Assembly: GCF_000420325.1 (NCBI RefSeq)
Contig: NZ_ATUS01000003.1
Location: 62,001 to 126,000, forward strand
Direction: 5' to 3'
DNA: 64,000 bases
Source of the DNA: Spongiibacter tropicus DSM 19543
Lineage (GTDB): Bacteria; Pseudomonadota; Gammaproteobacteria; Pseudomonadales; Spongiibacteraceae
Each line of letters opens with the position of its first letter. The stretch's first letter is position 1. Of the stretch, positions 40,304-61,055 are shown piece after piece. A program made the position numbers and the translations under genes. The notes beneath the pieces were generated by a model that was not told the DNA's origin, searched no databases, and worked only from the letters and a program-made list of their open reading frames with translations.

Positions 40304-41026
40304 TCAGGCAGCCAGCCAATCCCCTAAACGCCCTTTCAGCCGCAATACTGCCTGACTGTGAATCTGGCAAACCCGCGACTCGCTCACTTCCAACACCTCG
40401 CCGATTTCCTTGAGGTTCAAGCCCTGATCGTAGTACAGCGCCATCACCAGCTTCTCACGTTCAGGCAGTGCCTCGATCTGTGTAGCCAGCGCACGCTGAA
40501 GGCCTTCGTCCTCCAACTCCCGCAGCGGCGTATCGGCGCTGTCATCTTCGTCGCTGAACTCCATACCGCTGTCGCTGGCCTGCTCCAGGCTGACCAGACG
40601 CACCGCCGCGGTGTCGCTCAGCAAATCGTAGTAGTCATTGATATCAATGCCCATTTCCTCGGCAATTTCCGCGGCCTGCGCCTCGCGCCCCAAACGGGAC
40701 TCGACGCGATTGACTGCCGCCGCCAACTCCCGAAGCTGGCGACTTACCGAACGGGGAGCCCAGGCGCCCTGACGCATCTGGTCAATCATCGCGCCACGGA
40801 TACGAATGCTCGCATACGTTTCAAACCCCGCACCCTGCCCCGCACGGAAATTACTGGCCGCTTCCAACAGGCCAATCATCCCGGCCTGAATCAGATCATC
40901 CACCTCCACACTGGCAGGCAGGCGGCTGAGTAAATGGTAGGCAATGCGTTTAACCAGCGGCGCGTGGCGCGTCACCAGCTCGTCGCGGTTGCCTACCTGC
41001 ACATCGAGGTAAGCAGCGTGACTCAC
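40304..41026 (-). CDS. fliA: RNA polymerase sigma-28 factor FliA
   Basis: Flagellar sigma factor that transcribes late genes (flagellin, chaperones, chemotaxis). Regions 2 and 4 are intact, with LPASVEVDDLIQAGMIGLLEAASNF and GLNLKEIGEVLEVSESRVCQIHSQAVLRLKGRL. At 240 residues it is normal in length. It overlaps flhG by 4 bases (ATGA). It is the likely user of the sigma-28-like sites at 38094 and 61089. Confidence 0.97.
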   Translation of the reverse strand: MSHAAYLDVQVGNRDELVTRHAPLVKRIAYHLLSRLPASVEVDDLIQAGMIGLLEAASNFRAGQGAGFETYASIRIRGAMIDQMRQGAWAPRSVSRQLRELAAAVNRVESRLGREAQAAEIAEEMGIDINDYYDLLSDTAAVRLVSLEQASDSGMEFSDEDDSADTPLRELEDEGLQRALATQIEALPEREKLVMALYYDQGLNLKEIGEVLEVSESRVCQIHSQAVLRLKGRLGDWLAA

Positions 41027-41850
41027 ACGGCAACTCCTTTCAGACTTTCCTGTTGCAGAAGACGATCAACAAAGAATTCAAGGTGACCGCTCGGCCCCTG
41101 AGGCATTGGCCATTTATCCACCGTCTCCGCCAATTTTCGGAACGCCAGCGACGCATCCGCCCCCGGATACAGTTCGCTCACTGCCTGCTGACGGGCATCG
41201 GCTTTAACCAGAAAGCGATCGCGGGGAATAAAGCCTGCATACTCCAGCGTAACATCGAGGAAACGCTGGGCGACTTCGTTCAAGCGCTCGAAACCATCGC
41301 GGGCCTGATCCTGACTGTCGACCATATTGCGCAGAACTTTGAAACGCTTAATACCGGCATCACGGCTCATCACTTTGATCAGCGCATAGGCGTCTGCCAT
41401 CGAGGTCAGCTCATCGGTGACAACGACCATGACGTAGTGACTGGCTTTACTGAAGGTAATCACACTGTCGGAAATACCGGCCGCGGTATCCACCACCATC
41501 ACATCGTAATCATCATTGAGCGCGCTCAGCGCGCGGACAATGGCACCGTGCTGATCACTGCCCAGCTCCGCCATTTTCTTGATCCCCGACGCGGCGGGAA
41601 TAATATCGATGCCACTGGGACCGGGCATCAGGATATCCTGGATATCGCAAGCGCCCTCCAGCACATGAGACAAGTTCCACTTGGGCCGCAAGCCCAACAT
41701 GATATCGACATTGGCCAGACCCAGGTCGGCATCCATCAGCAATACCCGCTTCTGGCGGCGAGCAAGCTGGCAGGCCAGATTCACCGAAACATTGGTTTTG
41801 CCAACGCCACCTTTACCACTGCTCACTGCGATCACTTTTACCGGGTTCAT
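41023..41850 (-). CDS. flhG: Flagellar number regulator FlhG (FleN), MinD-like ATPase
   Basis: ParA/MinD-type ATPase of 275 residues that limits the number of polar flagella and in Pseudomonas antagonises FleQ. The deviant Walker A motif GKGGVGKT is at 12-19, with LLMDADLGLANVDIMLGL and VVDTAAGISD further on. The C-terminus ends in a membrane-targeting-like helix (HLEFFVDRLLQQESLKG). The pair with FlhF points to a polar flagellum. Because the FleQ-like protein here lacks its receiver domain, the FlhG contact may differ. Confidence 0.95.
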   Translation of the reverse strand: MNPVKVIAVSSGKGGVGKTNVSVNLACQLARRQKRVLLMDADLGLANVDIMLGLRPKWNLSHVLEGACDIQDILMPGPSGIDIIPAASGIKKMAELGSDQHGAIVRALSALNDDYDVMVVDTAAGISDSVITFSKASHYVMVVVTDELTSMADAYALIKVMSRDAGIKRFKVLRNMVDSQDQARDGFERLNEVAQRFLDVTLEYAGFIPRDRFLVKADARQQAVSELYPGADASLAFRKLAETVDKWPMPQGPSGHLEFFVDRLLQQESLKGVAV

Positions 41851-41911: not shown

Positions 41912-43153
41912 TCAGGCCTGTACTCCCAACCGCTGCGCAGGCGCAGGGGTCGCTACCCGGGGAGCCGGGGTAAATCCGCGCGCCATACGCATGGCAATAC
42001 TGACCAGCTTCGTGGCATCAGCAGGGCTCAGGTTTTGCGGCACCTTCGGGCCATTAGCACACCACACTGCGGGCAGGCGATGCTCAATCAGGTTCGACAG
42101 CAAACCACCCAGACGCATGGCTTCATCGATACGGCTGATCACAGCGCCCTGCAAATCAAAGCGGCTGTAGGCGTCAATAATTTCACTTTGCACATAGGCT
42201 TCGACATCGGCCGGTAAGGTCAGATAGCACTGCAATCCCGGCATCACGCTCAACAGTTTTTCCATTTCGTTCAGGCCTTCGCGATCCCGAAACGACAGCC
42301 CCGACGTGTCCACCAGTACCAGCGCCTTTTTCTCCAGCAGGCGAAAGGTCCGCGCCGCTTCACTGATCGTGCCGGCGCCGTGAACCGGAATCTGCAGAAT
42401 GCGGCCGTAAGCGCGCAGTTGATCCTGAGCGCCCACCCGCGCGCTGTCCGTGGTCAGCAGTGCGATATTGTCGCGGCCGTGACGCATCACATGCTGGGCA
42501 GCCAGTTTGGCAATGGTGGTCGTCTTCCCCGCCCCCTGGGGGCCAAGCAGACAAATCGCGCCACGGCTCGGCGGCGGCGCCACCGGCAAGCGTCGGCTCA
42601 GGAGAATTTTCAGGGCTTCCCGCTGCACCGCCTCGCTTTGCTCCGGCGGCAATTCCCGCTGAAGTTGCTCGGCAATCCGCGGCTCAATATCCATGGCTTC
42701 CAGCAGACCATTACTGCCCTGATGGCGTGGTTGCTCGGTGCTGAGCTGCTGCCAGTTGTGATCCTTGAGCTGTGACATCAGCATGGACTTCATTGCCGCC
42801 AGCTCCTGCTTCATCTCATGCAATTCGTCATTTTCAGACCACGCGAGCTGAGGACCTTTGCCAAAATTTTGGCGTGGCATCTCCGCCACCGGTGAAAGTT
42901 CAGTCTCGGAACGTTTTTCACGACGGGCCAACAAGGCCTCCAGCGCGGTATTTTCGCGGCTCTGAGCGGCATCTTGACGGACGGGAGCTACCACGGCCTC
43001 GCCCTCTGCCTCTGGTTCGTCCCAGCTCACCACCAGCTCCACACCACCGGGCACAGACTGGCAATCGAGAATCACCGCATCTGGACCGTGGGCAGCGCGG
43101 ATCATCCGCATCGCCTGTTCACTGTCTGCTGCCCGATATTTCTTTACGTTCAT
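41912..43153 (-). CDS. flhF: Flagellar placement GTPase FlhF
   Basis: SRP-type GTPase of 413 residues that sets the polar site of flagellar assembly. N-terminal basic domain MNVKKYRAADSEQAMRMIRA, linker, then NG domain with Walker A GPQGAGKT (204-211) and switch segment LVDTSGLSFRDREGL. GGGAG precedes the ATG. It lies between flhA and flhG in the usual order. Confidence 0.96.
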   Translation of the reverse strand: MNVKKYRAADSEQAMRMIRAAHGPDAVILDCQSVPGGVELVVSWDEPEAEGEAVVAPVRQDAAQSRENTALEALLARREKRSETELSPVAEMPRQNFGKGPQLAWSENDELHEMKQELAAMKSMLMSQLKDHNWQQLSTEQPRHQGSNGLLEAMDIEPRIAEQLQRELPPEQSEAVQREALKILLSRRLPVAPPPSRGAICLLGPQGAGKTTTIAKLAAQHVMRHGRDNIALLTTDSARVGAQDQLRAYGRILQIPVHGAGTISEAARTFRLLEKKALVLVDTSGLSFRDREGLNEMEKLLSVMPGLQCYLTLPADVEAYVQSEIIDAYSRFDLQGAVISRIDEAMRLGGLLSNLIEHRLPAVWCANGPKVPQNLSPADATKLVSIAMRMARGFTPAPRVATPAPAQRLGVQA

Positions 43154-49928: not shown

Positions 49929-50396
49929 TCACTGCATCACAAACTTGGTGAAATACACTTCCTCGACACCACCTTTCTTACCGGTCTCTTTTTCGAGCAC
50001 GGCGTTAATGGTGTCGACAACGCGCTGCTGAATAAGCTGGCGCCCTTCGATACTGTTGATCTGGTCTTTGGTCAGGCTGCTGAACATCATGATCAACTCG
50101 TGCCGGATCATGACCTGGTAGTCATCCACTTGCGAAATGACACCGTCCTCCCGGCTCATCACCTCGATATCCACCTGCAGAAACCGGGTGCCACGCTCAT
50201 TCAAGAGGTTCACCACGAACGATGGATCAAGACTCATGATCTGTGGCTTGGGCAACACTTCCGCCGCCGCTTTGCTTTCAGCTGCGTCAGCAGCCGGTTC
50301 GCTGCCCTTCAGGAAAAACCAGGTACCTCCTGCGGTCGCCAGCAACAGCACTACAACCAAGCCAATGAGGACAAATTTGTTTTTAAACATATGCAT
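49929..50396 (-). CDS. fliL: Flagellar basal body-associated protein FliL
   Basis: Single-pass inner-membrane protein of 155 residues near the stator. The membrane segment is at about 8-29, followed by a periplasmic stomatin-like domain with SLDPSFVVNLLNERGTRFLQVDIEV. AAGG sets the ATG at 50396. It is the first gene of the fliL-M-N-O-P-Q-R-flhB-flhA run. A consensus sigma-54 promoter lies 68 bases upstream. Confidence 0.93.
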   Translation of the reverse strand: MHMFKNKFVLIGLVVVLLLATAGGTWFFLKGSEPAADAAESKAAAEVLPKPQIMSLDPSFVVNLLNERGTRFLQVDIEVMSREDGVISQVDDYQVMIRHELIMMFSSLTKDQINSIEGRQLIQQRVVDTINAVLEKETGKKGGVEEVYFTKFVMQ

Positions 50397-50463
50397 AAGG
50401 CCTTTTACGTTCGGCACCCGAGCGCCAAATTTCTTGCAGAAACCTGCTTTTCAAGCACTATTT

Positions 50464-50479
50464 TGCAAGGCCTGTGCCA
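50464..50479 (-). promoter_or_regulatory. Sigma-54 promoter of the fliL operon
   Basis: TGGCACAGGCCTTGCA on the minus strand is a perfect -24/-12 RpoN site (TGGCAC-N5-TTGCA). It lies 68 bases before the fliL start, in the gap after the fliK terminator. Confidence 0.9.
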
Positions 50480-50629: not shown

Positions 50630-51844
50630 TCATGCGTAGGCGTCGAGGGTCCCGTCGGTATTATTGCGCGGGGTCGGCGCGGCGCTTCCGCCCTCGCCGT
50701 CATGCGGGGTATCCGCGGCCGTGTGAAGTTGTGCAAAACCGCTGCCGGAACGGCCCGACGACTGCTGGCTCTGTTGCTGCGCCTGCTGTTGTGAGGCCTC
50801 TCCCCAACTCGGTTGATGACTCACTTTCACTTCTTCCAGACGCATGCCTTGCTGCTCCATGGCGTGATTCAAGCGCGGCAGCATTTTCTCTATCAAGTCA
50901 CGGGTGTCCTGATGTTGGGTCTGGAACTGCACCGCCGCCTTATCGCCCTGCATGTTCAACTGCACTTGAATACCGCCCAGCTCTTCGGGATTCAGTTTCA
51001 GTGTGGCGTTCTGAACGCCGTTACCGGCCATCCAGTGAATCCGCGCGCCCACGGCCTCACTCCAGGCCGAGTCATCAACCGCGTGCTGACTGATGCTTAA
51101 CTGCAGGGTGGGACTCCGACCGTCCGCGGCGCCACTGCGGGCGGCAGTCAGTCGACCGATATCCGCAATGTCATTAGCCGTGCGCTCCACGCCCTCGGCG
51201 GTCGCCTCACCCTTCGTCGCAGCGATCGTCGCCGCGAACTCACCGCGCGCGGCTTCCACAGCCAATGGCTGGCTGCGAGAAGCGGTCTGCAGTCCTGTTG
51301 CCCGATCCTCAGCCGACTCGGCGGCATTCGCCAGTTCGGCGTCACCCGCTTGCGTGGCGTTCAGTGCCACCGCAGCAACGGTGGGTTTTGTGGCGACAGC
51401 ATCGTCATTGCCGACGACAGCCGTGTCGGCGGCTTCCCCGCCAGACAGTTGTCGCCAGCCAAACAGCGCAGCGGCCAAGCCACCGATTGCCGCCTGTGCC
51501 TCATCCATCTCCTGCACGTCGGCATCGGAAGAGGCCGGCAGCAACTTGCCGTCCGGCGGCAAGATCGTGCCTGCGATGTCTGCCGCTTCCAGCTCTTCTG
51601 CCAGGGCCTCAAGATCGAGTTCGCCGTCGCTACCCTGCTGCATCAGTTCTCCCAGCACCGCCGGGAGTTCACCGCCGTCGCCGGCAGCCAACAGCTGTTG
51701 CAACAGCGCCTGCTGGTTGGCCAGCAAATCCCCAAACGGCAGTAAACCCGCGGGATTGCCGCCATTCAAGGGCGTCACACTGCCACGCGCTGCGGCAGGA
51801 CTTTGGAGCTGGGCACTGCTTACGTTACTGATCGGGCTGCTCAT
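50630..51844 (-). CDS. fliK: Flagellar hook-length control protein FliK
   Basis: A 404-residue export-ruler protein. A long Ala/Glu/Gln-rich low-complexity N-terminal region is followed by the Flg_hook C-domain with VQNATLKLNPEELGGIQVQLNMQGDKAAVQFQTQHQDTRDLIEKMLPRLNHAM. The C-terminus is Gln/Ser/Gly-rich. The ATG at 51844 has AGGAT upstream. It is transcribed from its own sigma-54 promoter at 51952 and ends at a terminator. Confidence 0.92.
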   Translation of the reverse strand: MSSPISNVSSAQLQSPAAARGSVTPLNGGNPAGLLPFGDLLANQQALLQQLLAAGDGGELPAVLGELMQQGSDGELDLEALAEELEAADIAGTILPPDGKLLPASSDADVQEMDEAQAAIGGLAAALFGWRQLSGGEAADTAVVGNDDAVATKPTVAAVALNATQAGDAELANAAESAEDRATGLQTASRSQPLAVEAARGEFAATIAATKGEATAEGVERTANDIADIGRLTAARSGAADGRSPTLQLSISQHAVDDSAWSEAVGARIHWMAGNGVQNATLKLNPEELGGIQVQLNMQGDKAAVQFQTQHQDTRDLIEKMLPRLNHAMEQQGMRLEEVKVSHQPSWGEASQQQAQQQSQQSSGRSGSGFAQLHTAADTPHDGEGGSAAPTPRNNTDGTLDAYA

Positions 51845-51921
51845 AATACGATCCTGTAAGACGGGGTTCACCAGCGCCACACGGCTGTCGTGCGGCCTCA
51901 TGCTGGCGGCAAATATTCATG

Positions 51922-51951: not shown

Positions 51952-51967
51952 AGCAAACACTGTGCCA
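51952..51967 (-). promoter_or_regulatory. Sigma-54 promoter of fliK
   Basis: TGGCACAGTGTTTGCT on the minus strand fits TGGCAC-N5-TTGCW. It lies between the fliJ stop and the fliK start, about 108 bases before the latter. Confidence 0.88.
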
Positions 51968-51980
51968 TTCAAGAAAGGGC

Positions 51981-52442
51981 TTAGCTCAGGCCCTGCTGCT
52001 GGCGGCGCTGCCAGACAAAGCGCTGGCTGCTCAATTCATCGCTGACCGACTGCTCACGGCGAGCTTCATCGCGACGTTCGTCGGCCCGATAACGCTCGAT
52101 AAGTTGATCCATGCTGCGACTGTGCTGGCGGGCTTTCATCCACTCCTGGCGGATTTTCCGTAACTGCTCCCGGCAGCGTTCCACCGAATCGGACTGTTGG
52201 CGAATCGCCAGGGACAGACGAGAGAGAAAGGCGCGACTTTCCTGCAAACGCTTCACGTCACACAGGCTGTCAGCCGCGGCGCGACGGTACTCCTCGTAAT
52301 ACTGCTTGAGTTCGTCGAGTTTCTGGCTCTGGGTCTCATACTGCTGCTGAACGGCCGCATAGCGCGTCGCCTCTTCCTGCTCCTGGCGATCTGCCAGCGC
52401 CTGAACCGGTTGCATACGCTGTGATTTTTTTTCCGTACTCAC
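51981..52442 (-). CDS. fliJ: Flagellar export protein FliJ
   Basis: A 153-residue, highly charged coiled-coil protein lying between fliI and fliK. FliJ resembles the gamma stalk of ATP synthases and activates the FliI ring. The sequence is nearly all helix with Gln/Arg/Glu heptads (YETQSQKLDELKQYYEEYRR), and identification rests on this and position. A GTG start at 52442 follows GGAGGATAACG. Confidence 0.85.
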   Translation of the reverse strand: MSTEKKSQRMQPVQALADRQEQEEATRYAAVQQQYETQSQKLDELKQYYEEYRRAAADSLCDVKRLQESRAFLSRLSLAIRQQSDSVERCREQLRKIRQEWMKARQHSRSMDQLIERYRADERRDEARREQSVSDELSSQRFVWQRRQQQGLS

Positions 52443-52489
52443 CGTTATCCTCCGTTGACGCCAGCCGCTAAGGCCGCGTCAAATTTCAT

Positions 52490-53869
52490 TCAATCGAGTT
52501 CGACTGCTTCGCCTTCCAGCAACAGACTCAGCTTGTCCAGCGAGGCATCAAAGCCGTCAGACTCGTCGTAGGCCTGCTGCAGAAACGCCTGAATCTTCGG
52601 CCACAACGCTATCGCTTCGTCCACTCGGGCATCACTGCCTCGCTGGTAGGCGCCAATGGTCACCAAGTCGCGGTTCTGCTGATACAGCGACACCAGTTGT
52701 CGCAGTCGCCTGACCAGTTGCTGATGTCCCTTATCGGTAATGTCATTCATCGCCCGGCTGACCGAGCGCTCGATATCTATTGCCGGGTAGTGGCCCGCAT
52801 CGGCGAGACTTCGCGACAGCACAATATGGCCATCGAGAATCGCCCGCGCCGCGTCGACAATCGGGTCGTTCTGATCGTCCCCTTCCGCCAGCACGGTATA
52901 AAACGCGGTGATCGAACCGCCGCCTTCTTCGCCGTTCCCGGCCCGCTCCACCAGCGCCGGCAGCCTCGCAAACACCGAGGGCGGGTAACCTTTGGTGGCA
53001 GGCGGTTCGCCTGTCGCCAGCGCGATCTCACGTTGAGCCTGCGCGAAGCGGGTCAGTGAATCCATCAGTAATAACACCTGCTGGCCCTGGTCCCGGAAGT
53101 ACTCCGCCACGGCGCTGGCCAGCCACGCAGCGCGCATCCGCATCAACGGCGGCTGATCTGCCGGTGTGGCGATCACCACCGCATGGCGCATATCGTCGCC
53201 ACCGAGAATATTGTCGATAAAATCTTTGACCTCGCGGCCGCGCTCGCCAATCAGAGCAACCACCACCACATCGGCCTTGGTATAGCGCGTCATCATGCCC
53301 AGCAGGACACTCTTACCGACGCCACTGCCGGCAAACAGTCCGAGCCGCTGACCCTGACCCACGGTCAGCAACGCGTTGATCGCACGAACGCCGACATCGA
53401 GCGGTTCCCGGATGGGACGGCGCGACAGCGGGTTCAGGGGAGCACCGTTCAACGGGCGGTAATCGTCGGTGCGCAAGGGGCCACGGTTATCCAGCGGCTG
53501 GCCGGCGGCATCGATCACGCGGCCCAGCAGGGCCTCGCCCACCGGCACGCTGGATCCCTTGCCGATAGGCCGAACTCTGGCGTGGGGCATGACACCGCGC
53601 AGCTCGCCGGTCGGCATCAGCAAAATACAATCACTGGCGAAACCCACAACCTCGGTTTCCAGCCAGTCACCGTCAATGGTTTCCACTTCGCAGTAGGCGC
53701 CGATCGCCGCCTTGCAGCCCTCAGCTTCGAGCAAGGTGCCTACAATGCGACGCAACTGACCTTCGGCGGGCACCGGCGGTTCGGCGGCACGTCGGGCGAC
53801 CTGCTCACTGCGCTGCTGGAGCCGCGAGACCAGATGCCTGCGAGGATTAAATTCCGTGTTCTGGGGCAT
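52490..53869 (-). CDS. fliI: Flagellum-specific ATPase FliI
   Basis: Export ATPase of 459 residues, related to F1 beta. Walker A GSGVGKS is at 181-187, with [15 protein letters not shown] and the Walker B region [26 protein letters not shown]. The ATG at 53869 has AGGAG seven bases upstream. The start overlaps the end of fliH by 23 bases. Confidence 0.97.
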
Positions 53870-54563
53870 CCGCCGACTCCTGCGAGGAGGCCAACAGGCG
53901 GGCCAGTCGCGTTTCCAGGCGATGATCCACCTGAGACTGGGCATTTCTGATCAGGCTGCCGCCGCGCTGAATATCCGGGTCTTCATGCAGCGTCCAGGCG
54001 GGCTCCAGCGGTTCATCCTGCTCGGCCACCTGCCGCAGCAGCGCAGCATCCTCGGGATTCAGGTGCAGGTCGATCCGTCCCTCAGCCACGGGCAACAGCT
54101 TCACCGCGTCGTGCAGACGGCTGCGCAACCACTCCGGGTCGGCAGTCAATTCGCGCCCCAACAGGGCCTTCGCCACGGCACAGGCCAACACCTCAAGCTG
54201 TTCTGCAACCTCCCCCTCCAGCCAGGCCATGGGCTGACGCAGGGCGGCAATCGCCAACTGCAACTGCTGACTCTGCTGAGCCAGCAATGCCTGTGCGTCG
54301 GCTTCACCTTTGGCAAAACCCTGCTGCCGGGCTTCTTCACGCAGGGCGTCGAGTTCACTCTCCAACAGGGGATCGTCTGCTACACGCTCCACATCGCGCT
54401 CAGGGGTTTGATCAAAACGCATCAGCGACCCATCGCCGACGGGGCGGGATGTCCCCATACCGGGCGGCTGCCATGCGCGTGGGGACTCCTCCACCGCGTC
54501 GACGCTGTCCTGCGGCGGGTGGCCCAGGTCTCGCGGTGTGAAAGCATGAAATCCCTGCGTCAT
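53847..54563 (-). CDS. fliH: Flagellar assembly protein FliH
   Basis: A 238-residue regulator of FliI. A variable N-terminal region is followed by a helical part ([28 protein letters not shown]) and a C-terminal domain with [38 protein letters not shown] and [20 protein letters not shown], typical of FliH/YscL. GGGAG precedes the ATG at 54563. Confidence 0.93.
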
Positions 54564-54587
54564 TGGCAATGCTCCCGTCGCCGCGCC

Positions 54588-55613
54588 TTAGATGTAGTCG
54601 TCGCCACCACGGCCGAGGTCAATCTGGCCACTTTCGGCAAGACTGCGGGCAATGGTAAGAATCTCTTTCTGGGCCTGCTCGACCTCGCTGATCTTAATCG
54701 GGCCGCGAGCATCCATATCGTCCAGCAGCATTTCGCGGGCACGCTTGGACATGTTCCTCAGGATCTTTTCTTTGACTTCTTCCCCAGCCCCCTTCAATGC
54801 AATGGGCAGCAGATCGGAAGAGACCTCACGAAGCAGCTGTTGAACGCCCTTGTCACTGATATTGATGAGGTTGCTGAAGACGAACATCAGGTCCTGAATG
54901 CGCGCAGAGAGTTCTTCGTTGTTTTTAGCGAGACTTTCCAGGATGCGGGTTTCTGCATCGCCACCAAGGCCATTGATCAAACCAGCGGCGGTAGCTGCGC
55001 CATCGATCTGGCGGTTTTTCAGCTTGGCGCTCACCGACAGCTTTTTCTTGAGAATGCCCTGCAACTGCCTCATTGCAGTATCGGGAATGGTCTTCATGTT
55101 CGCGATGCGATAGACCACATCGTTCTGCTGCGCCTCGGGCAGCTTCGCCAACACTTTGGCGGCCTGCTCCGGCTCGAGATGGGCAAGCGTGATAGCGATC
55201 ATCTGGGGGTGCTCATCTTTTAGCATTTGTGCCAGCGCTTCGGGCTCCACCCAACGCAGCTCTTCCATCTCCTGTCCCGGCTGGTCACCCAGTACCCGTC
55301 TCGCCAGACTGCCGCCGGCCTGCTCGCCCAGCGCCGTGGTAAAGACCTTGCGCACGTAGGATTGCACACCTACGGCCAGTGAATTTTCTGACTGCGCGCT
55401 GTGCTGGAAATCCTGCACCACCGCCATCGCGCGACTGTTATCGACACGTTTGATACCCGCCATAGCGGTACCGATACGCTCGACATCCTCGGGTGCAACG
55501 TGCTGCAGCACTTTGGCGGCGTGGGTTTCTCCCATCATCAACAGCAGCAGTGCTGCCTTCTCACAGCCGGGGATACTGGCGACCGCGGCGTCGCTGCGTT
55601 CTGCGTTATCCAT
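54588..55613 (-). CDS. fliG: Flagellar motor switch protein FliG
   Basis: Rotor protein of 341 residues that couples stator force to the C-ring. The three armadillo-like domains are complete, including MIAITLAHLEPEQAAKVLAKLPE in the middle, and the C-terminal torque helix carries the expected charged residues (DDMDARGPIKISEVEQAQKEIL). It overlaps the end of fliF by 8 bases. Confidence 0.97.
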   Translation of the reverse strand: MDNAERSDAAVASIPGCEKAALLLLMMGETHAAKVLQHVAPEDVERIGTAMAGIKRVDNSRAMAVVQDFQHSAQSENSLAVGVQSYVRKVFTTALGEQAGGSLARRVLGDQPGQEMEELRWVEPEALAQMLKDEHPQMIAITLAHLEPEQAAKVLAKLPEAQQNDVVYRIANMKTIPDTAMRQLQGILKKKLSVSAKLKNRQIDGAATAAGLINGLGGDAETRILESLAKNNEELSARIQDLMFVFSNLINISDKGVQQLLREVSSDLLPIALKGAGEEVKEKILRNMSKRAREMLLDDMDARGPIKISEVEQAQKEILTIARSLAESGQIDLGRGGDDYI

Positions 55614-57240
55614 TGTCTTCTGTCACCCACTTGTTGACGACTTGTGCGACGCGGCGAGGATCTTCCTCAACCATGCCGCGCACATCACTGAGCTGCTGCT
55701 CAAATCCCGGCCTGGAACGACCTCCCCCTTGGGGCGCGCCCAGCGCCGCTACCGGCGGCTGCTGATATTCACCGCTCATCGCGCGGTCGATATCGCCTTG
55801 GGCATGCCCCGCATCAAGGGCGGCCGGGCGATGGCTGTGCAGCAGGCTGCGCATACCGGGACGCAGCACCGCAAACACAATCACAATCACCGCGACGCCA
55901 ATCAGCAACTGCTTGATCAGATTGGCAAACCAGGGCTGTTCCCAGATCGCCGGCTCAACCGTTTGTTCGTCAAACAGGGCTTCATCGCGGAAGTCCGCCG
56001 CCATCACCGTCACCCGGTCGCCGCGATCCTGCTCAAAGCCGACGGCGTCTTTAACCAACAGCGTCATGCGCTCGATTTCCGGGTTACTCATCGGCTCGAT
56101 AACCACTTCACCGCTTTCATTCACCCGGCGGTGGTTATCCACCAGCACCGCCACCGACAGTTTATTGACGCGGCCGCTGGGGTTGTTGCTGTGAGCCAAG
56201 ACCCGTTCGATCTCATAGTTGCGAATGACCGAGCGATTGCCTAACGCCGCACTCTCCTCGTTGTCCTGCTGAGCCTGTGCACCCGGAGGCTGGTTACTCA
56301 ACGCCCCCGGTACCCCTCTGGCGGCCGCGCCACCGTCTGCCTGCACCTGCTCGTTTATCTGTTCACTTCTCACCACCTGGCGATCCGGATTCCAGCTCTC
56401 GCGGCTTTCCTGCTCGCTGGAGAAATCCACATCGGCCGACACCGTCACCCGAACCCGGCCCGAGCCGGCGATCGGACTGATAAGCTCGGCAATACGATCC
56501 TCGTAGGCCTGCTCAATGCGGCGGCGGTAATTGAACTGACGGTCGCTAAGTTCAAGTTGATCATCCTCGCGGTGAGTCTCGCTGAGCTGTCGCCCCTGCT
56601 GATCAACGACCGTCACGTTCTCCGCCTGCAGATCACCAATGCTGCCCGCGACCAGATTGACGATTGCCGAGACGTTCTGTTTCGACACATCCCGTCCCGG
56701 GTAGATGTCCAGCATAATCGACGCACTTGAGGGCTTGCGATCCCGTACAAATACGGACTGCTTGGGAATCGCCAGGTGCACACGGGCTCGGCGAACCTGC
56801 TGCAGACTCTCTATGGTGCTGGCCAGTTCCTGCTCCAGCGCATAGTGATACTTCTTGGATTGCATGAACTCACTGACACCAAAGCCCTGCTCCTGCTCAA
56901 GCATGGCCATGCCGGAGCCATCGCGCTCCAGGCCCTGACCGGCGAGCCGGATACGGGCATCGTGTAGCTGCTCGGCCGGCACCAAAATCGCGCCGGTGCT
57001 GTCCTGAATCCGGTAGGGAATTTGCGAAGCATTTAAGGCATCGACGACCGCTGACGCGCGCTCGGGCGGCAAGGAGGTATACAGCGTCCGATAATCGCTG
57101 CCCTGCGACCACATCACGGCGGCGACGCCGACAGCAACACTGGCGGCAATGCTGACCAAAATCAGCAACTGGCGCAGCACGTCATTTTTTGCAGCGCTGG
57201 CCAGCAAAGTATTTACAGACACTGCGCGGGTTTCAGCCAT
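55606..57240 (-). CDS. fliF: Flagellar MS-ring protein FliF
   Basis: MS-ring protein of 544 residues with two membrane segments (about 23-43 and 440-458), YscJ-like ring-building domains between them, and a C-terminal FliG-binding tail ending at the stop. GAGG sets the ATG at 57240; a GTG 15 bases upstream is possible. Confidence 0.96.
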   Translation of the reverse strand: MAETRAVSVNTLLASAAKNDVLRQLLILVSIAASVAVGVAAVMWSQGSDYRTLYTSLPPERASAVVDALNASQIPYRIQDSTGAILVPAEQLHDARIRLAGQGLERDGSGMAMLEQEQGFGVSEFMQSKKYHYALEQELASTIESLQQVRRARVHLAIPKQSVFVRDRKPSSASIMLDIYPGRDVSKQNVSAIVNLVAGSIGDLQAENVTVVDQQGRQLSETHREDDQLELSDRQFNYRRRIEQAYEDRIAELISPIAGSGRVRVTVSADVDFSSEQESRESWNPDRQVVRSEQINEQVQADGGAAARGVPGALSNQPPGAQAQQDNEESAALGNRSVIRNYEIERVLAHSNNPSGRVNKLSVAVLVDNHRRVNESGEVVIEPMSNPEIERMTLLVKDAVGFEQDRGDRVTVMAADFRDEALFDEQTVEPAIWEQPWFANLIKQLLIGVAVIVIVFAVLRPGMRSLLHSHRPAALDAGHAQGDIDRAMSGEYQQPPVAALGAPQGGGRSRPGFEQQLSDVRGMVEEDPRRVAQVVNKWVTEDNG

Positions 57241-57276
57241 GACAGATTGCCTCACTCAGAATCGGAAAGCCCTGCT

Positions 57277-57615
57277 TCACATCGACATCCTCATCACTTC
57301 CTGATAGGCGTCCACCAGCTTGTTGCGCACTTCCACGGCGGCTTTAAATGACACCTGCGCCTTTTGCATATTCACCATCACTTCAGTGATGCTCACATTC
57401 GGATCGCCGCGCTCAAAGGCCGTGGTCAGTTCACTGGCATTCTTCTGGCTGGCATTCACCCCATCCAGCGACTGCTGCAGTAACTGGGAGAAATCGACCC
57501 GCGGCGTGGATTCCAGCGCCGTCGACGAGCCGACTTCCTCCATCGACGGCAGCGGGCTCTGCTCACGCAGGGCGCGAATCTGTTGGAGGATCGAGTCCAC
57601 TTTCATATCCGACAT
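57277..57615 (-). CDS. fliE: Flagellar hook-basal body protein FliE
   Basis: A 112-residue rod-junction protein. The conserved core VDFSQLLQQSLDGVNASQKNASELTTAFERGDPNVSITEVMVNMQKAQVSFKAAVEVRNKLVDAYQEVMRM is complete. It starts 12 bases after the fleR stop, so it is probably transcribed with fleR. ATGs at 57615 and 57606 are both possible. Confidence 0.95.
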   Translation of the reverse strand: MSDMKVDSILQQIRALREQSPLPSMEEVGSSTALESTPRVDFSQLLQQSLDGVNASQKNASELTTAFERGDPNVSITEVMVNMQKAQVSFKAAVEVRNKLVDAYQEVMRMSM

Positions 57616-57627
57616 AACGCTCTCCCC

Positions 57628-58572
57628 TTAGCCTTGCAGGCAGCTTTGTTCACGCATCCGCGCCAGCTTGTAGCGCAGTGTGCGAGGACTGATGCCGAGC
57701 AGTTCGGCGGCTTCTTTCTTCGAGCGCCCCTGACGTAAGGCCGCCTGGATACGCTGACTTTCCTGGTCTCGCATAAAGCCTTCCAGCGGTGCCGCTTCTG
57801 CCGACACCGGTGCCGAGAACAGTTGCATGCCCTGCTCAAACTGAATGTCGACATCGTCGATTCGCGGCGCGGCGCGCAGAATCAGCGCACGTTGGATCAC
57901 GTTATCGAGTTCCCGAACATTGCCGGGCCAGGGGTAGCTGAGCAGTTTGTCGGCGGCAGCGGAGCTGAGCACACTGGCTCCGTCGCTGACCGACTCGTCG
58001 CGCTCAAGAAAGTGAATGGCCAATGGCAGAATATCGTCGCGACGCTCACGCAGCGGTGCCAGACAAAGGGGGAATACATTGAGGCGATAGAACAGATCTT
58101 CACGAAAATCGCCATCGTTAACGGCCTGTCTCAGATCGCGGTTAGTCGTTGCCAGTACACGAACATCCAGCTTGATACTGCGGCGGCTGCCCAAGCGTTC
58201 AATTTCCTTTTCCTGCAGGACACGCAGCAGCTTGGCTTGCAAGCCGATATCCATTTCGGAGATTTCATCCAGCAGCAAGGTGCCGCCCTGTGCCTGCTCA
58301 AACTTACCGGCGTGACTGTTCACCGCTCCGGTGAAGGCCCCCTTCTCATAGCCGAAAAGCATGGCTTCCAGCATATTCTCGGGAATCGCTGCGCAGTTCA
58401 GCGCCACAAACGGGCCGTCTGCACGGCGCGATTGCTGATGGATATAGCGGGCATACACTTCTTTACCCACACCGCTTTCTCCACAAATCAGTACAGTGGC
58501 ATCGGTGGCCGCTACCCGGGAGGCCAGCGTTTTCAGTGCGCGCGACGCGCGGTCTTCGGCGATCAGGCTCAT
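57628..58572 (-). CDS. FleR/FlrC-type sigma-54 activator lacking a receiver domain
   Basis: Sigma-54 activator for middle flagellar genes. It has only 314 residues: the AAA+ domain starts at once (Walker A GESGVGKE at 31-38, sigma-54 contact loop GAFTGA at 78-83, Walker [13 protein letters not shown]), followed by a Fis-type HTH ([22 protein letters not shown]). That C-terminus is typical of FleR. FleR/FlrC normally carry about 120 N-terminal receiver residues phosphorylated by FleS/FlrB; here these are absent. The ATG overlaps the stop of a 51-codon ORF (ATGA), which limits any upstream extension. Confidence 0.9.
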
Positions 58573-58724
58573 TGCGACTTACCTCCGCGCAATGCCGTTG
58601 AGCGCAGTACACGCTGTTGTTGCTGCAACTGTTTTCTGGCCAGCACCAACTCTCTCTGGCAGCGATTCATTATCGCCACATCCAACGTTACGCTAGCGGA
58701 GTTAGAAAGAAGTATATCAGCCAT
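58569..58724 (-). CDS. Small ORF coupled to fleR, function unknown
   Basis: A 51-codon reading frame that fills the space between a sigma-54 promoter and fleR. AAGG lies eight bases before its ATG, and its stop overlaps the fleR start (ATGA), so fleR translation likely depends on it. The protein has a neutral N-terminal half ([19 protein letters not shown]) and a basic, Gln-rich helical half ([19 protein letters not shown]). I do not recognise it. It occupies the place where fleS/flrB would be expected. It could be a small regulator or only a leader peptide. Confidence 0.6.
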
Positions 58725-58759
58725 TGTTAACAACCTTTTGTCACTGTTACGGCCTTCAA

Positions 58760-58775
58760 TGCAACCGCCGTACCA
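58760..58775 (-). promoter_or_regulatory. Sigma-54 promoter of the small ORF-fleR-fliE operon
   Basis: TGGTACGGCGGTTGCA on the minus strand matches TGGYRYRN4TTGCA fully. It lies 36 bases before the small ORF start. The upstream 58780-58850 is strongly AT-rich, suitable for activator or IHF binding. Confidence 0.88.
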
Positions 58776-58867
58776 ATATATTTTTTATAAAAAATTCAAT
58801 TACTTAATTAATAAAAAACGGGGAATGACAAACTTTTGGCGGCTGTTTTTAAACAAAATAGTCAGGC

Positions 58868-58892
58868 ATAAAAAATGCGGCATAAGCCGCAT
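58868..58892 (-). terminator. Terminator after the fleQ-like gene
   Basis: On the minus strand ATGCGGC-TTAT-GCCGCAT is followed by a run of Ts, about 50 bases after the fleQ-like stop. It isolates fleQ from the next operon. Confidence 0.9.
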
Positions 58893-58942
58893 GGTTAGAA
58901 ACAATGAATCTGCTAGCTGAAATCAGATTGGGATAAGGCCAT

Positions 58943-60022
58943 TCAAGCCATACCGAGTTTCTTCATTTTCTCGGCCAGCGTAGTCCGCTGCAGGCCAAGC
59001 AATTGTGCGGCCCGGGTAATAACACCGCCCTCACGCTCTAGCGCCTGACTGATATATTGCTGCTCCAATTCCTGCAGCAGCGATTTCAGGTCCACACCGT
59101 CTGCGGGCAGACTGGCTGGCGCAAGGCTGGCCTCCTCTGTGCTGTCTTCGTCAAATTCGCGGTCCAGCAGCACGGCCATCAGTGCGTCCTGATCCTCACG
59201 GCCCGATGGCTCGCTGTCGTCATCGACAACCAGTTCGAAACGGTATTTCGCGGGAAGGTCTTTAACACCGATACGCTGCCCGCCGTGGGTGATCGACAGG
59301 CGCTCGATGAGGTTTTCGAGTTCACGAACATTGCCCGGCCAGCCGTAACGCTGCAAAGCCCGCAGGGCATTGGGAGACAGATTCGGCGGCGTCATGCCCC
59401 GCTCTTTCAAGCGTGCTGAAAAGCCGCCAACCAGCGTTTCGATATCTTCGGGATGCTCGCGCAGGGAAGGCACTTCGATAGGAAAGACATCGAGACGAAA
59501 AAACAGGTCCTGGCGAAAACTGCCTTCGTCCACCATGTCCTCAAGGTTGCGGTGGGTCGCAGCCAGAATACGCACATTGCAACGGCGGGTTTCATTGCTG
59601 CCGACACGTTCGTAGCAACGTTCCTGAAGGACGCGCAGCAGTTTGACCTGCATCGGCAGGCTCATGTCACCGATCTCGTCGAGAAACAGCGTACCGCCCT
59701 CAGCCATTTCAAAACGGCCTTTGCGCGTTGCCACCGCACCGGTGAACGCGCCTTTTTCGTGGCCGAACAACTCGCTTTCCAGCAGATCAGCCGGAATGGC
59801 GCCGCAGTTCACCGGAATAAAGGGATTGCCAGCGCGGTCGGAGTACTCGTGAATTTTTCGGGCAACGACTTCCTTGCCGCTCCCAGACTCGCCGCGAATC
59901 AACACCAGCGTGTCGAAGCTGGCGACCTGCTGAATCAGTACATCCAGTGCCCGCATTTTGCGTGAGCAGGGGGCCATACCCATGACTGATTCGCCTTCCT
60001 TTGACCGCATCGCATTGCTCAT
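58943..60022 (-). CDS. FleQ/FlrA-type sigma-54 activator lacking the N-terminal domain
   Basis: Master-regulator homologue of about 359 residues or fewer. Walker A GESGSGKE (44-51), GAFTGA (91-96) and Walker [11 protein letters not shown] are intact, and the C-terminal HTH ([27 protein letters not shown]) matches FleQ. Pseudomonas FleQ has about 490 residues with an atypical N-terminal receiver, which is missing here. The next gene ends only 229 bases upstream, so there is no room for it. Starts at 60022, 60010 or 59983 are possible, the last with the best ribosome site (AAGGAAGG). Arg residues for c-di-GMP binding could not be checked without alignment. Confidence 0.88.
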
Positions 60023-60251
60023 TTTGTTTATACTTTCGTCACTTGAGAGGACATCCCACTCTCTCCCCAAGACCCCTGCAAGGCAAAGCCTTGGCAGCCC
60101 CACGACAATCATCAAGCGTGGAATCATTCTGAGAGATCAGCCCATGGCTTGTTAATACGTAGAATCGCTGAGCAGCGTTCGGTATTACCGGCCTGCACAG
60201 GGAGGGATAAGAAGAACGGGCAAGCGGGATACCTGCCCTAATGTCGACGGA

Positions 60252-60608
60252 CTACGCGTGACGGAGATAACTACCCAGATTCTCGGCGTTGCGACGCTGC
60301 TGAGCATTGCTGTCGACCATGGCACCGCGCTGGCGATGCAGCAACTCGGTTACCCGGTCATCAATCTTCAGTATTTCTTCGATCACAGCGGAAACCAGTC
60401 CCGCTTCAGCCGGTGGACAGTCAACCGCAAAGAACTGGTCCATCGCCAGACGTCGCGTCTGCTGCATGGGCAGGGCCGCTGACCAGTCGCCCTGCGAAGC
60501 GCTGTCACAGATGCGCTCGCTCAGCGTCAGCAGCTCGCGAAGCTGCTGCTGACGGGGCGTGAGCAACTCTGCGTTTTTCAGCGCGGCTACATCCATCTCT
60601 TTCACCAT
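60252..60608 (-). CDS. fliT: FliT-like flagellar chaperone
   Basis: A 118-residue helical protein directly after fliS, in the usual position of the FliD chaperone FliT. The sequence (LLTLSERICDSASQGDWSAA, then RVTELLHRQRGAMVDSNAQQRRN) is consistent with FliT-family proteins, which are poorly conserved. Start ATG follows the fliS stop directly. Confidence 0.75.
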   Translation of the reverse strand: MVKEMDVAALKNAELLTPRQQQLRELLTLSERICDSASQGDWSAALPMQQTRRLAMDQFFAVDCPPAEAGLVSAVIEEILKIDDRVTELLHRQRGAMVDSNAQQRRNAENLGSYLRHA

Positions 60609-61055
60609 TTACATTACCGCTTCAGCATGGCTTTCGCGTGCACGTTCCAGCGCATCAACACCGCGCAAGGTGTCGGGAATCGCATCCCAGGCTTCTTTCA
60701 GTTCCTGCAGCAGCGCCGCAACCTCTTCCAGTGCCGCGTCGTCGTTGTTGATATTGGCCAGCAACAGCCGACGGTTCATGTAGTCATAGAGATTCTCAAG
60801 GTTTTCACACAGGGGGTTTTCCACACTGTGATCGATGCTCATACGCAGTCCATCGATAATGGAGATGACCCTGCTGATCGTCGTCGACTTCTGGGCAATT
60901 TCCCGGCGCTGCATTTGGCCGCGAGCCACAGCGATACGATCCAGCGCACCATCCATCAGCAATTGAATGAGCCGGTGAGGGCTGGCGGCGTCGACCTGCG
61001 TCTGCGTTCCGACACTGGCGTAGGCCTGGCTGACACGACCTGCTGAATAGCTCAT
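60609..61055 (-). CDS. fliS: Flagellin chaperone FliS
   Basis: A 148-residue four-helix export chaperone that binds the flagellin C-terminus. The conserved pattern ASPHRLIQLLMDGALDRIAVARG and LYDYMNRRLLLANINND is clear. A sigma-28-like promoter lies 34-60 bases upstream. Confidence 0.95.
   Translation of the reverse strand: MSYSAGRVSQAYASVGTQTQVDAASPHRLIQLLMDGALDRIAVARGQMQRREIAQKSTTISRVISIIDGLRMSIDHSVENPLCENLENLYDYMNRRLLLANINNDDAALEEVAALLQELKEAWDAIPDTLRGVDALERARESHAEAVM

Follow-up and report, generated by a model that had tools for sequence, protein, structure and literature searches.

In the flagellar locus of Spongiibacter tropicus DSM 19543, the two sigma-54 activators, a FleQ-like and a FleR-like protein, both started at the AAA+ domain and carried no receiver, and the kinase FleS was found in none of the 21 genomes of the family that were searched (3 of them 70-89% complete). 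The reading that we favour, and consider somewhat probable, is a receiverless cascade from FleQ to FleR which is ordered by expression and proceeds without phosphorylation of FleR. The window referred to below is the whole stretch of DNA analysed, 64,000 nucleotides of contig NZ_ATUS01000003.1.

Domain structure of the flagellar activators

The fleQ-fleR region of the window contained the following features.

57628-58572, minus strand: fleR-type activator without receiver, 314 aa (open reading frame, Pfam and PDB match)
58569-58724, minus strand: 51-codon gene whose end overlaps the fleR start in an ATGA (conserved frame)
58761-58775, minus strand: sigma-54 -24/-12 consensus TGGTACGGCGGTTGC, 51 nt before the ATG of the small gene
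58943-60022, minus strand: fleQ-type activator without N-domain, 359 aa (Pfam and PDB match)

In the FleR-like protein, Pfam assigned Sigma54_activat to residues 4-169, followed by an AAA lid and a Fis-type helix-turn-helix (HTH), and no receiver was detected by Pfam in the 314 aa. The top PDB match was the AAA+ domain of FlrC (4qhs, E 1.4e-96). The AAA+ and HTH parts expected of a FleR/FlrC member were thus present, while the phosphorylatable receiver was absent and the cognate kinase FleS/FlrB was not found. The FleQ-like protein consisted of Sigma54_activat, lid and HTH, with neither a receiver nor the FleQ N-domain (PF06490) by Pfam, and its top PDB match was Pseudomonas aeruginosa FleQ (8p53_C, E 9.2e-112). 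Of the traits of FleQ/FlrA, the AAA+ domain with GAFTGA and the Fis-type HTH were found, and the N-terminal FleQ (receiver-like) domain, the LFRS linker and the c-di-GMP contacts R144 and E330 were missing. An alternative fleQ start at the in-frame upstream ATG at 60127 would give 394 aa, with an extension unlike the ten other family N-termini compared.

The earlier note had described both proteins as AAA+ and HTH activators lacking receivers, and had named a domain search as the check that could overturn this; Pfam and the six-frame profiles agreed with the description, and no receiver was found in either protein. The six-frame search covered 57600-60620 with profiles of FleR receivers (16 sequences) and of FleQ N-domains (22 sequences), and neither domain was detected in this interval (best E 0.14), by which a hidden or frameshifted receiver was rejected. 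The companion claim that gene spacing leaves no room for such a domain overlooked that the fleQ-fleR gap is not empty; it holds the conserved 51-codon gene and the sigma-54 site.

The same architecture was observed in related genomes. The open frames holding the FleR match were 316-374 codons long in all 18 genus genomes searched, with Walker A 30-31 codons after the FleR start in 17 genus loci, and the flagellar FleQ match lay in frames of 361-427 codons across the genus genomes (n = 18). A sequencing error hiding upstream coding sequence was excluded as the cause of the short activators by their recurrence in 18/18 genomes. Among the best 80 of 332 matches to the short FleR, the closest named ones were those of Spongiibacter marinus and Neomelitea salexigens, both 82% identical. 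A match at E<=1e-92 was obtained in 156 of the 369 genomes of a class-wide sample, and at least five of the matches listed, including that of the own genome, lay in open frames of fewer than 400 codons. Judged by frame length the receiverless state looks uncommon, longer open frames being no proof of a receiver.

Flagellar cluster and sigma-54 sites

Both activator genes belonged to a long flagellar cluster with the following further features.

40304-41026, minus strand: fliA (sigma-28), profile over cut-off
41023-41850, minus strand: fleN/flhG candidate between flhF and fliA, MinD-family matches under cut-offs
41912-43153, minus strand: flhF, TIGR03499 over cut-off
50465-50479, minus strand: sigma-54 consensus before fliL (49929-50417), exact match
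51953-51967, minus strand: sigma-54 consensus before fliK (50630-51901), exact match
51981-57615, minus strand: fliE, fliF, fliG, fliH, fliI and fliJ, directly downstream of fleR (open reading frames; profiles name fliE, fliF, fliG and fliI)

The order on the minus strand was fliC, flaG, fliD, fliS, fliT, fleQ, the small gene, fleR, fliEFGHIJ, fliK and fliL, followed by further fli/flh genes, flhF, the fleN/flhG candidate and fliA. Profiles backed the names of all ten genes tested (fliS, fliT, fliE, fliF, fliG, fliI, fliK, fliL, flhF and fliA), the fliT match of 29.2 bits being just below the Pfam value of 29.5. We take fliH and fliJ to be so by position, the gene at 41023-41850 to be FleN by position and P-loop (MinD-type ATPase), and the other flagellar genes of the window to be what their sequence and position indicate. 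Exact sigma-54 sites numbered 3 in the window versus 0.20 expected, and 3 were reached in 1 of 100 shuffles. The looser consensus TGGYAYDNNNNTTGCW was present in 16 of 17 genus loci and in the 18th.

The loss of domains from both activators might be taken for a flagellar system that is decaying and non-functional. This is very improbable, as the catalytic AAA+ residues were conserved, fleR dN/dS, measurable in 5 of 12 pairs, was 0.02-0.12, the long fli/flh cluster had all its tested genes recognised, and single flagella are described on Spongiibacter nanhainus cells in the report consulted (PMC8805636). The same publication reports a deletion mutant of S. nanhainus CSC3.9, a relative open to genetic work.

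Loss of FleS and of the FleR receiver

The genome search for FleS, in which the top 12 candidates of every genome were scored, gave no match at E<=1e-25 elsewhere in the own genome. At this threshold, 14 of the 21 family genomes had no FleS match, and the remaining 7 contained only a kinase of 533-718 codons with 25-30% identity to FleS. Matches at E 1.1e-40 or better were obtained in 70 of 124 non-family genomes, compared with 0 of 21 in the family.

The relation between kinase and receiver was evaluated in 80 named loci, the best 80 of 332 matches to the short FleR, a sample which leans towards its relatives; FleS was scored in a locus by tblastn above 100 bits with 12 FleS queries from the loci themselves. 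FleS was present in 31 of these best 80 of 332, and all 31, of which 16 had built the receiver profile, had a receiver whose phospho-acceptor Asp is present. The 49 loci of this sample without FleS comprised 43 with no receiver, 5 with a degenerate one and 1 with an intact one; these figures include L094, whose contig was too short for the FleS test. The degenerate receivers were those of L071 (Litorivivens), L072, L087 and L089 (Thioalkalivibrio) and L134, with the acceptor Asp replaced in 5/5. The intact one, L070 (UBA5047), kept the acidic pair and the acceptor Asp with no FleS found, so that loss of FleS is not always loss of the receiver. Pfam agreed on the receiver state in the four loci tested (L070, L071, L072 and L076). 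Receiver and FleS were concordant in 74 of these best 80 of 332 loci, and in 79 if receivers lacking the phospho-acceptor Asp are counted as lost. On a tree built from every named locus except L094 (79 of 80), 5 changes were counted for the receiver and 4 for FleS. A statistical proof of the FleS-receiver link was dropped, since there were too few independent events for significance.

One of the 43 loci counted as receiverless, L131, encodes a FleR-type activator (L131:1710-3068, plus strand) with an N-terminal PAS domain instead of the receiver (Pfam PAS_8). The PAS region resembles FleS (71 bits) and the locus had no separate FleS match; a FleS-PAS/FleR fusion is possible from these similarities.

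In the sister genus the FleR receiver is still there, in degenerate form in Litorivivens (L071:6620-7945), where the phospho-acceptor Asp and the acidic pair were both replaced. By these residues, the Litorivivens FleR is an intermediate stage of receiver loss. The FleR tree, composed of 83 rows with 15 of the 18 genus FleRs (L094 and L040 were dropped and others lost to the C-terminal pattern), grouped the genus FleR with that of its sister genus, which bears a receiver, and contained two more receiverless groups, Ectothiorhodospira and a Steroidobacteraceae-like set. The genus rows required 2 changes and formed one clade in 38% of bootstraps, with several long branches. Horizontal gain of the short FleR from other receiverless lineages was rejected, because the tree places it by the receiver-bearing FleR of the sister genus.

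Five Ectothiorhodospira loci (L076, L078, L099, L122 and L129) combined a receiverless FleR with the absence of FleS from the locus; L076 and L129, the two inspected, encoded a FleQ-type protein of 487-492 aa directly upstream of FleR. As far as their sequences tell, the Ectothiorhodospira loci are a separate route to the same receiver loss. Loci of the Ectothiorhodospira, Thioalkalivibrio and Steroidobacteraceae types resemble the Spongiibacter locus in having no FleS and a FleR receiver that is gone or without the acceptor Asp. They differ in forming separate groups on the FleR tree and in having no comparable small gene, and the Ectothiorhodospira and Thioalkalivibrio loci inspected differ also by a full-length FleQ N-terminal extension.

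c-di-GMP contacts of FleQ and the second FleQ-like protein

Residues of FleQ were compared in P. aeruginosa numbering, for which 18 of the 20 family FleQs found were aligned. K180, E181, R260, R300, R363 and I374 were kept in 18/18 and R185 in 17. Differently, R144 was kept in 1/18 and E330 in 0/18, compared with 35/39 each in full-length FleQs. The LFRS motif was found in 0/18 family FleQs, 0/10 other short FleQs and 0/6 paralogs, and in 34/39 full-length FleQs plus one LFRA. The ten other short FleQs were less clear, with R144 in 5/10 and E330 in 4/10. Judging from the lost contact residues, the short FleQ is probably blind to c-di-GMP and has probably lost this input. R334, which touches both c-di-GMP and ATP in P. 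aeruginosa FleQ, was R in only 7/18 family FleQs and K in 10/18, so that ATP handling of the short FleQ may differ too. A published account describes the FleQ receiver of P. aeruginosa as essential for activity and stable FleN binding (PMC10723142), which is the main reason for caution on the assumption that FleQ minus its receiver still works. Given this essentiality and the variable R334, the short FleQ might depend on assistance, for instance from a second FleQ-like protein.

All 18 genus genomes pointed to such a protein, with one further FleQ match at E<=1e-80 apiece. The copy of the own genome (438 aa; G000:C1:486904-487668, L172:8692-10008) lies outside the flagellar locus and follows a gene with an EAL-type motif (pattern only). 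Its score to P. aeruginosa FleQ was similar to that of the FleQ of the window (372.7 vs 376.9 bits). The N-terminus was long in 4 of the 6 copies sampled and very short in 2, and Pfam detected no N-domain in the own copy. In hhalign, a profile of the four long N-termini matched FleQ N-domains at 52% across 101 columns, but not FleR receivers (0.8%); single-profile searches for the FleQ N-domain in these four copies gave E 0.003-0.22. The N-terminus thus weakly resembles the FleQ N-domain in sequence. In Pfam searches, E values for the FleQ N-domain went down to 8.9e-31 elsewhere in the order, compared with 2.7e-6 to 4e-4 in 19 of the 21 genomes of the own family and nothing in 2; among the family matches listed, none was at the flagellar fleQ. 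The inference of the earlier note that the hierarchy operates without the N-terminal FleQ domain was therefore sustained for the flagellar locus and is less certain for the cell as a whole, since the N-terminus of the second protein weakens it there.

This second protein might be the actual master regulator, or a partner that the system requires, in which case the short flagellar FleQ would be its truncated helper. Its occurrence throughout the genus, its score to P. aeruginosa FleQ and the alignment of its four long N-termini agree with that view, but its gene is placed away from the flagellar genes, and the six sampled copies formed a separate, fast-diverging clade on the FleQ tree, which leaves out nine edge-cut copies. 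LFRS and E330 were absent in 6/6 copies, and no second FleQ match was found in the two sister-genus genomes which have a flagellar FleQ. Together with the two very short N-termini, the poor single-profile values and the Pfam result for the own copy, these observations make such a role rather improbable.

A conserved small gene coupled to fleR

A frame of 51-64 codons, with its start taken as the first ATG after the sigma-54 site, was found upstream of fleR in all 18 genus genomes; in 16 cases its stop overlapped with the start of fleR, and in the other 2 it lay 1 nt short of it. In ten close pairs, hand-picked and sharing members, the frame had no stops and a dN/dS of 0.17-0.34. The other two frames had stops in 10/10 pairs and a higher dN/dS in all, once narrowly (0.36 vs 0.34). 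More distant pairs aligned poorly, with ratios up to about 1.3. The small gene is under purifying selection. Its product is fast-evolving, with only M1 and one Glu invariant in 17 sequences, and was predicted as a single helix from residue 2 to 47 (mean pLDDT 78.9, above 90 for 20 residues, pTM 0.45). No similarity to the receiver and FleS profiles was found; a descent of the small gene from either thus had no profile support, a reversed-sequence control being equally weak.

The ATG of the small gene lay 49-55 nt after the sigma-54 site in 16 loci, and the receiver-bearing fleR started 54 nt (Litorivivens) and 56 nt (UBA5047) after it; these matching distances indicated that the small gene sits where the receiver was encoded. 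The 34 receiverless loci from other families were scanned for upstream frames of 40-110 codons opening with ATG; 2 had one, in neither case ending at the fleR start, which makes the small gene a feature of the genus and not general to receiverless FleR.

The small gene might encode a dedicated regulator acting in trans, which replaces FleS and the receiver, binds the AAA+ ring of FleR and releases it once the MS ring and export apparatus are built. The constant position at the fleR start, the purifying selection in ten close and partly overlapping pairs, the predicted helix and the shared spacing from the sigma-54 site speak for such a role. Against it, the protein evolves rapidly and lacks profile similarity to receivers or FleS, receiverless FleR outside the family manages without a comparable small gene, and coupling alone could serve fleR translation. 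On balance we regard this regulator as a real possibility towards which we do not lean.

Discussion

The receiverless cascade, which we favour, could work as follows. The short FleQ, a complete AAA+ sigma-54 activator, would turn on the promoter at 58761-58775, which would drive the small gene, fleR and fliEFGHIJ as one transcript. The short FleR would then be active once made, without phosphorylation and presumably constitutively, and the order of the flagellar genes would be set by expression order instead of a FleS checkpoint. If any post-translational control remains, the small helical protein, coupled to FleR translation, would be the strongest candidate for it. With the phospho-acceptor domain gone and FleS not found in the 21 family genomes, a hierarchy without FleR phosphorylation, as the earlier note had proposed, suggests itself naturally.

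Compared with the FleQ-FleS-FleR system of Pseudomonas and FlrA-FlrB-FlrC of Vibrio, the AAA+ and HTH parts are homologous and the flagellar gene neighbours are the same as in FleS-bearing relatives; the differences are that here FleS was not found, the FleR receiver and the FleQ N-domain are absent and the residues contacting c-di-GMP have been lost. For Rhodobacter (Cereibacter) sphaeroides, a pair of flagellar activators without receivers has already been published; both, FleQ and FleT, are described as lacking N-terminal regulatory domains (PMC9542535). According to the published descriptions, R. sphaeroides FleQ switches on the fleT-fliEFGHIJ operon, and the class after that is served by FleQ/FleT (PMC7277832, PMC11999139). 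The Spongiibacter pair is alike, by published description and not by sequence comparison, in that both activators are without the N-domain and the second one heads a sigma-54-dependent operon with fliEFGHIJ. By analogy with FleQ/FleT, which work as a hetero-oligomer in R. sphaeroides, the short FleQ and short FleR might form one hetero-oligomer, in which the second activator changes promoter choice instead of acting by itself. The missing N-domains on both sides (PMC9542535) and the shared layout, with the second activator directly before fliEFGHIJ behind a sigma-54 site (PMC7277832, PMC11999139), are consistent with it. However, FleT is without a DNA-binding domain whereas FleR here keeps a Fis-type HTH (HTH_8), so that we consider the hetero-oligomer unlikely. 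The coupled small gene before fleR is another difference from R. sphaeroides. To this our work adds an example from the Gammaproteobacteria, a FleQ/FleR pair whose intermediate stages can be traced and in which FleS and the c-di-GMP contacts were lost in parallel, together with a small gene that is conserved and coupled to fleR.

Sensor-less activators are described as a recognised class, including PspF, HrpRS and LafK (PMC3162934), and control in trans is reported for PspA on PspF (PMC3791423), HrpV on HrpRS (PMC4145663) and FliX on Caulobacter FlbD (PMC7064773). Trans control by the small helical protein next to FleR would be in keeping with these pairs.

In polar flagellates broadly, a flagellum-linked two-component system is described to delay the genes for rod and hook until basal-body assembly is complete, and by the same account only two FlhF/FlhG-positive Gram-negative species of the reference set are without such a system (PMC7064773). 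The lineage studied here has flhF and a FleN-type gene, yet no FleS was found, and the regulatory domains and c-di-GMP contacts are lost, with intermediate stages of loss in related genomes. Whether the checkpoint is dispensable, has given way to timing at the level of transcription or now resides in a small protein thus becomes testable. A new flagellar checkpoint, in which the helical protein of about 55 aa restrains the FleR ring in trans and signals that the basal body is complete, thereby replacing FleS-FleR, is a tentative and somewhat doubtful proposal; if it is true, FleS-FleR would have been replaced in a lineage of FlhF/FlhG flagellates.
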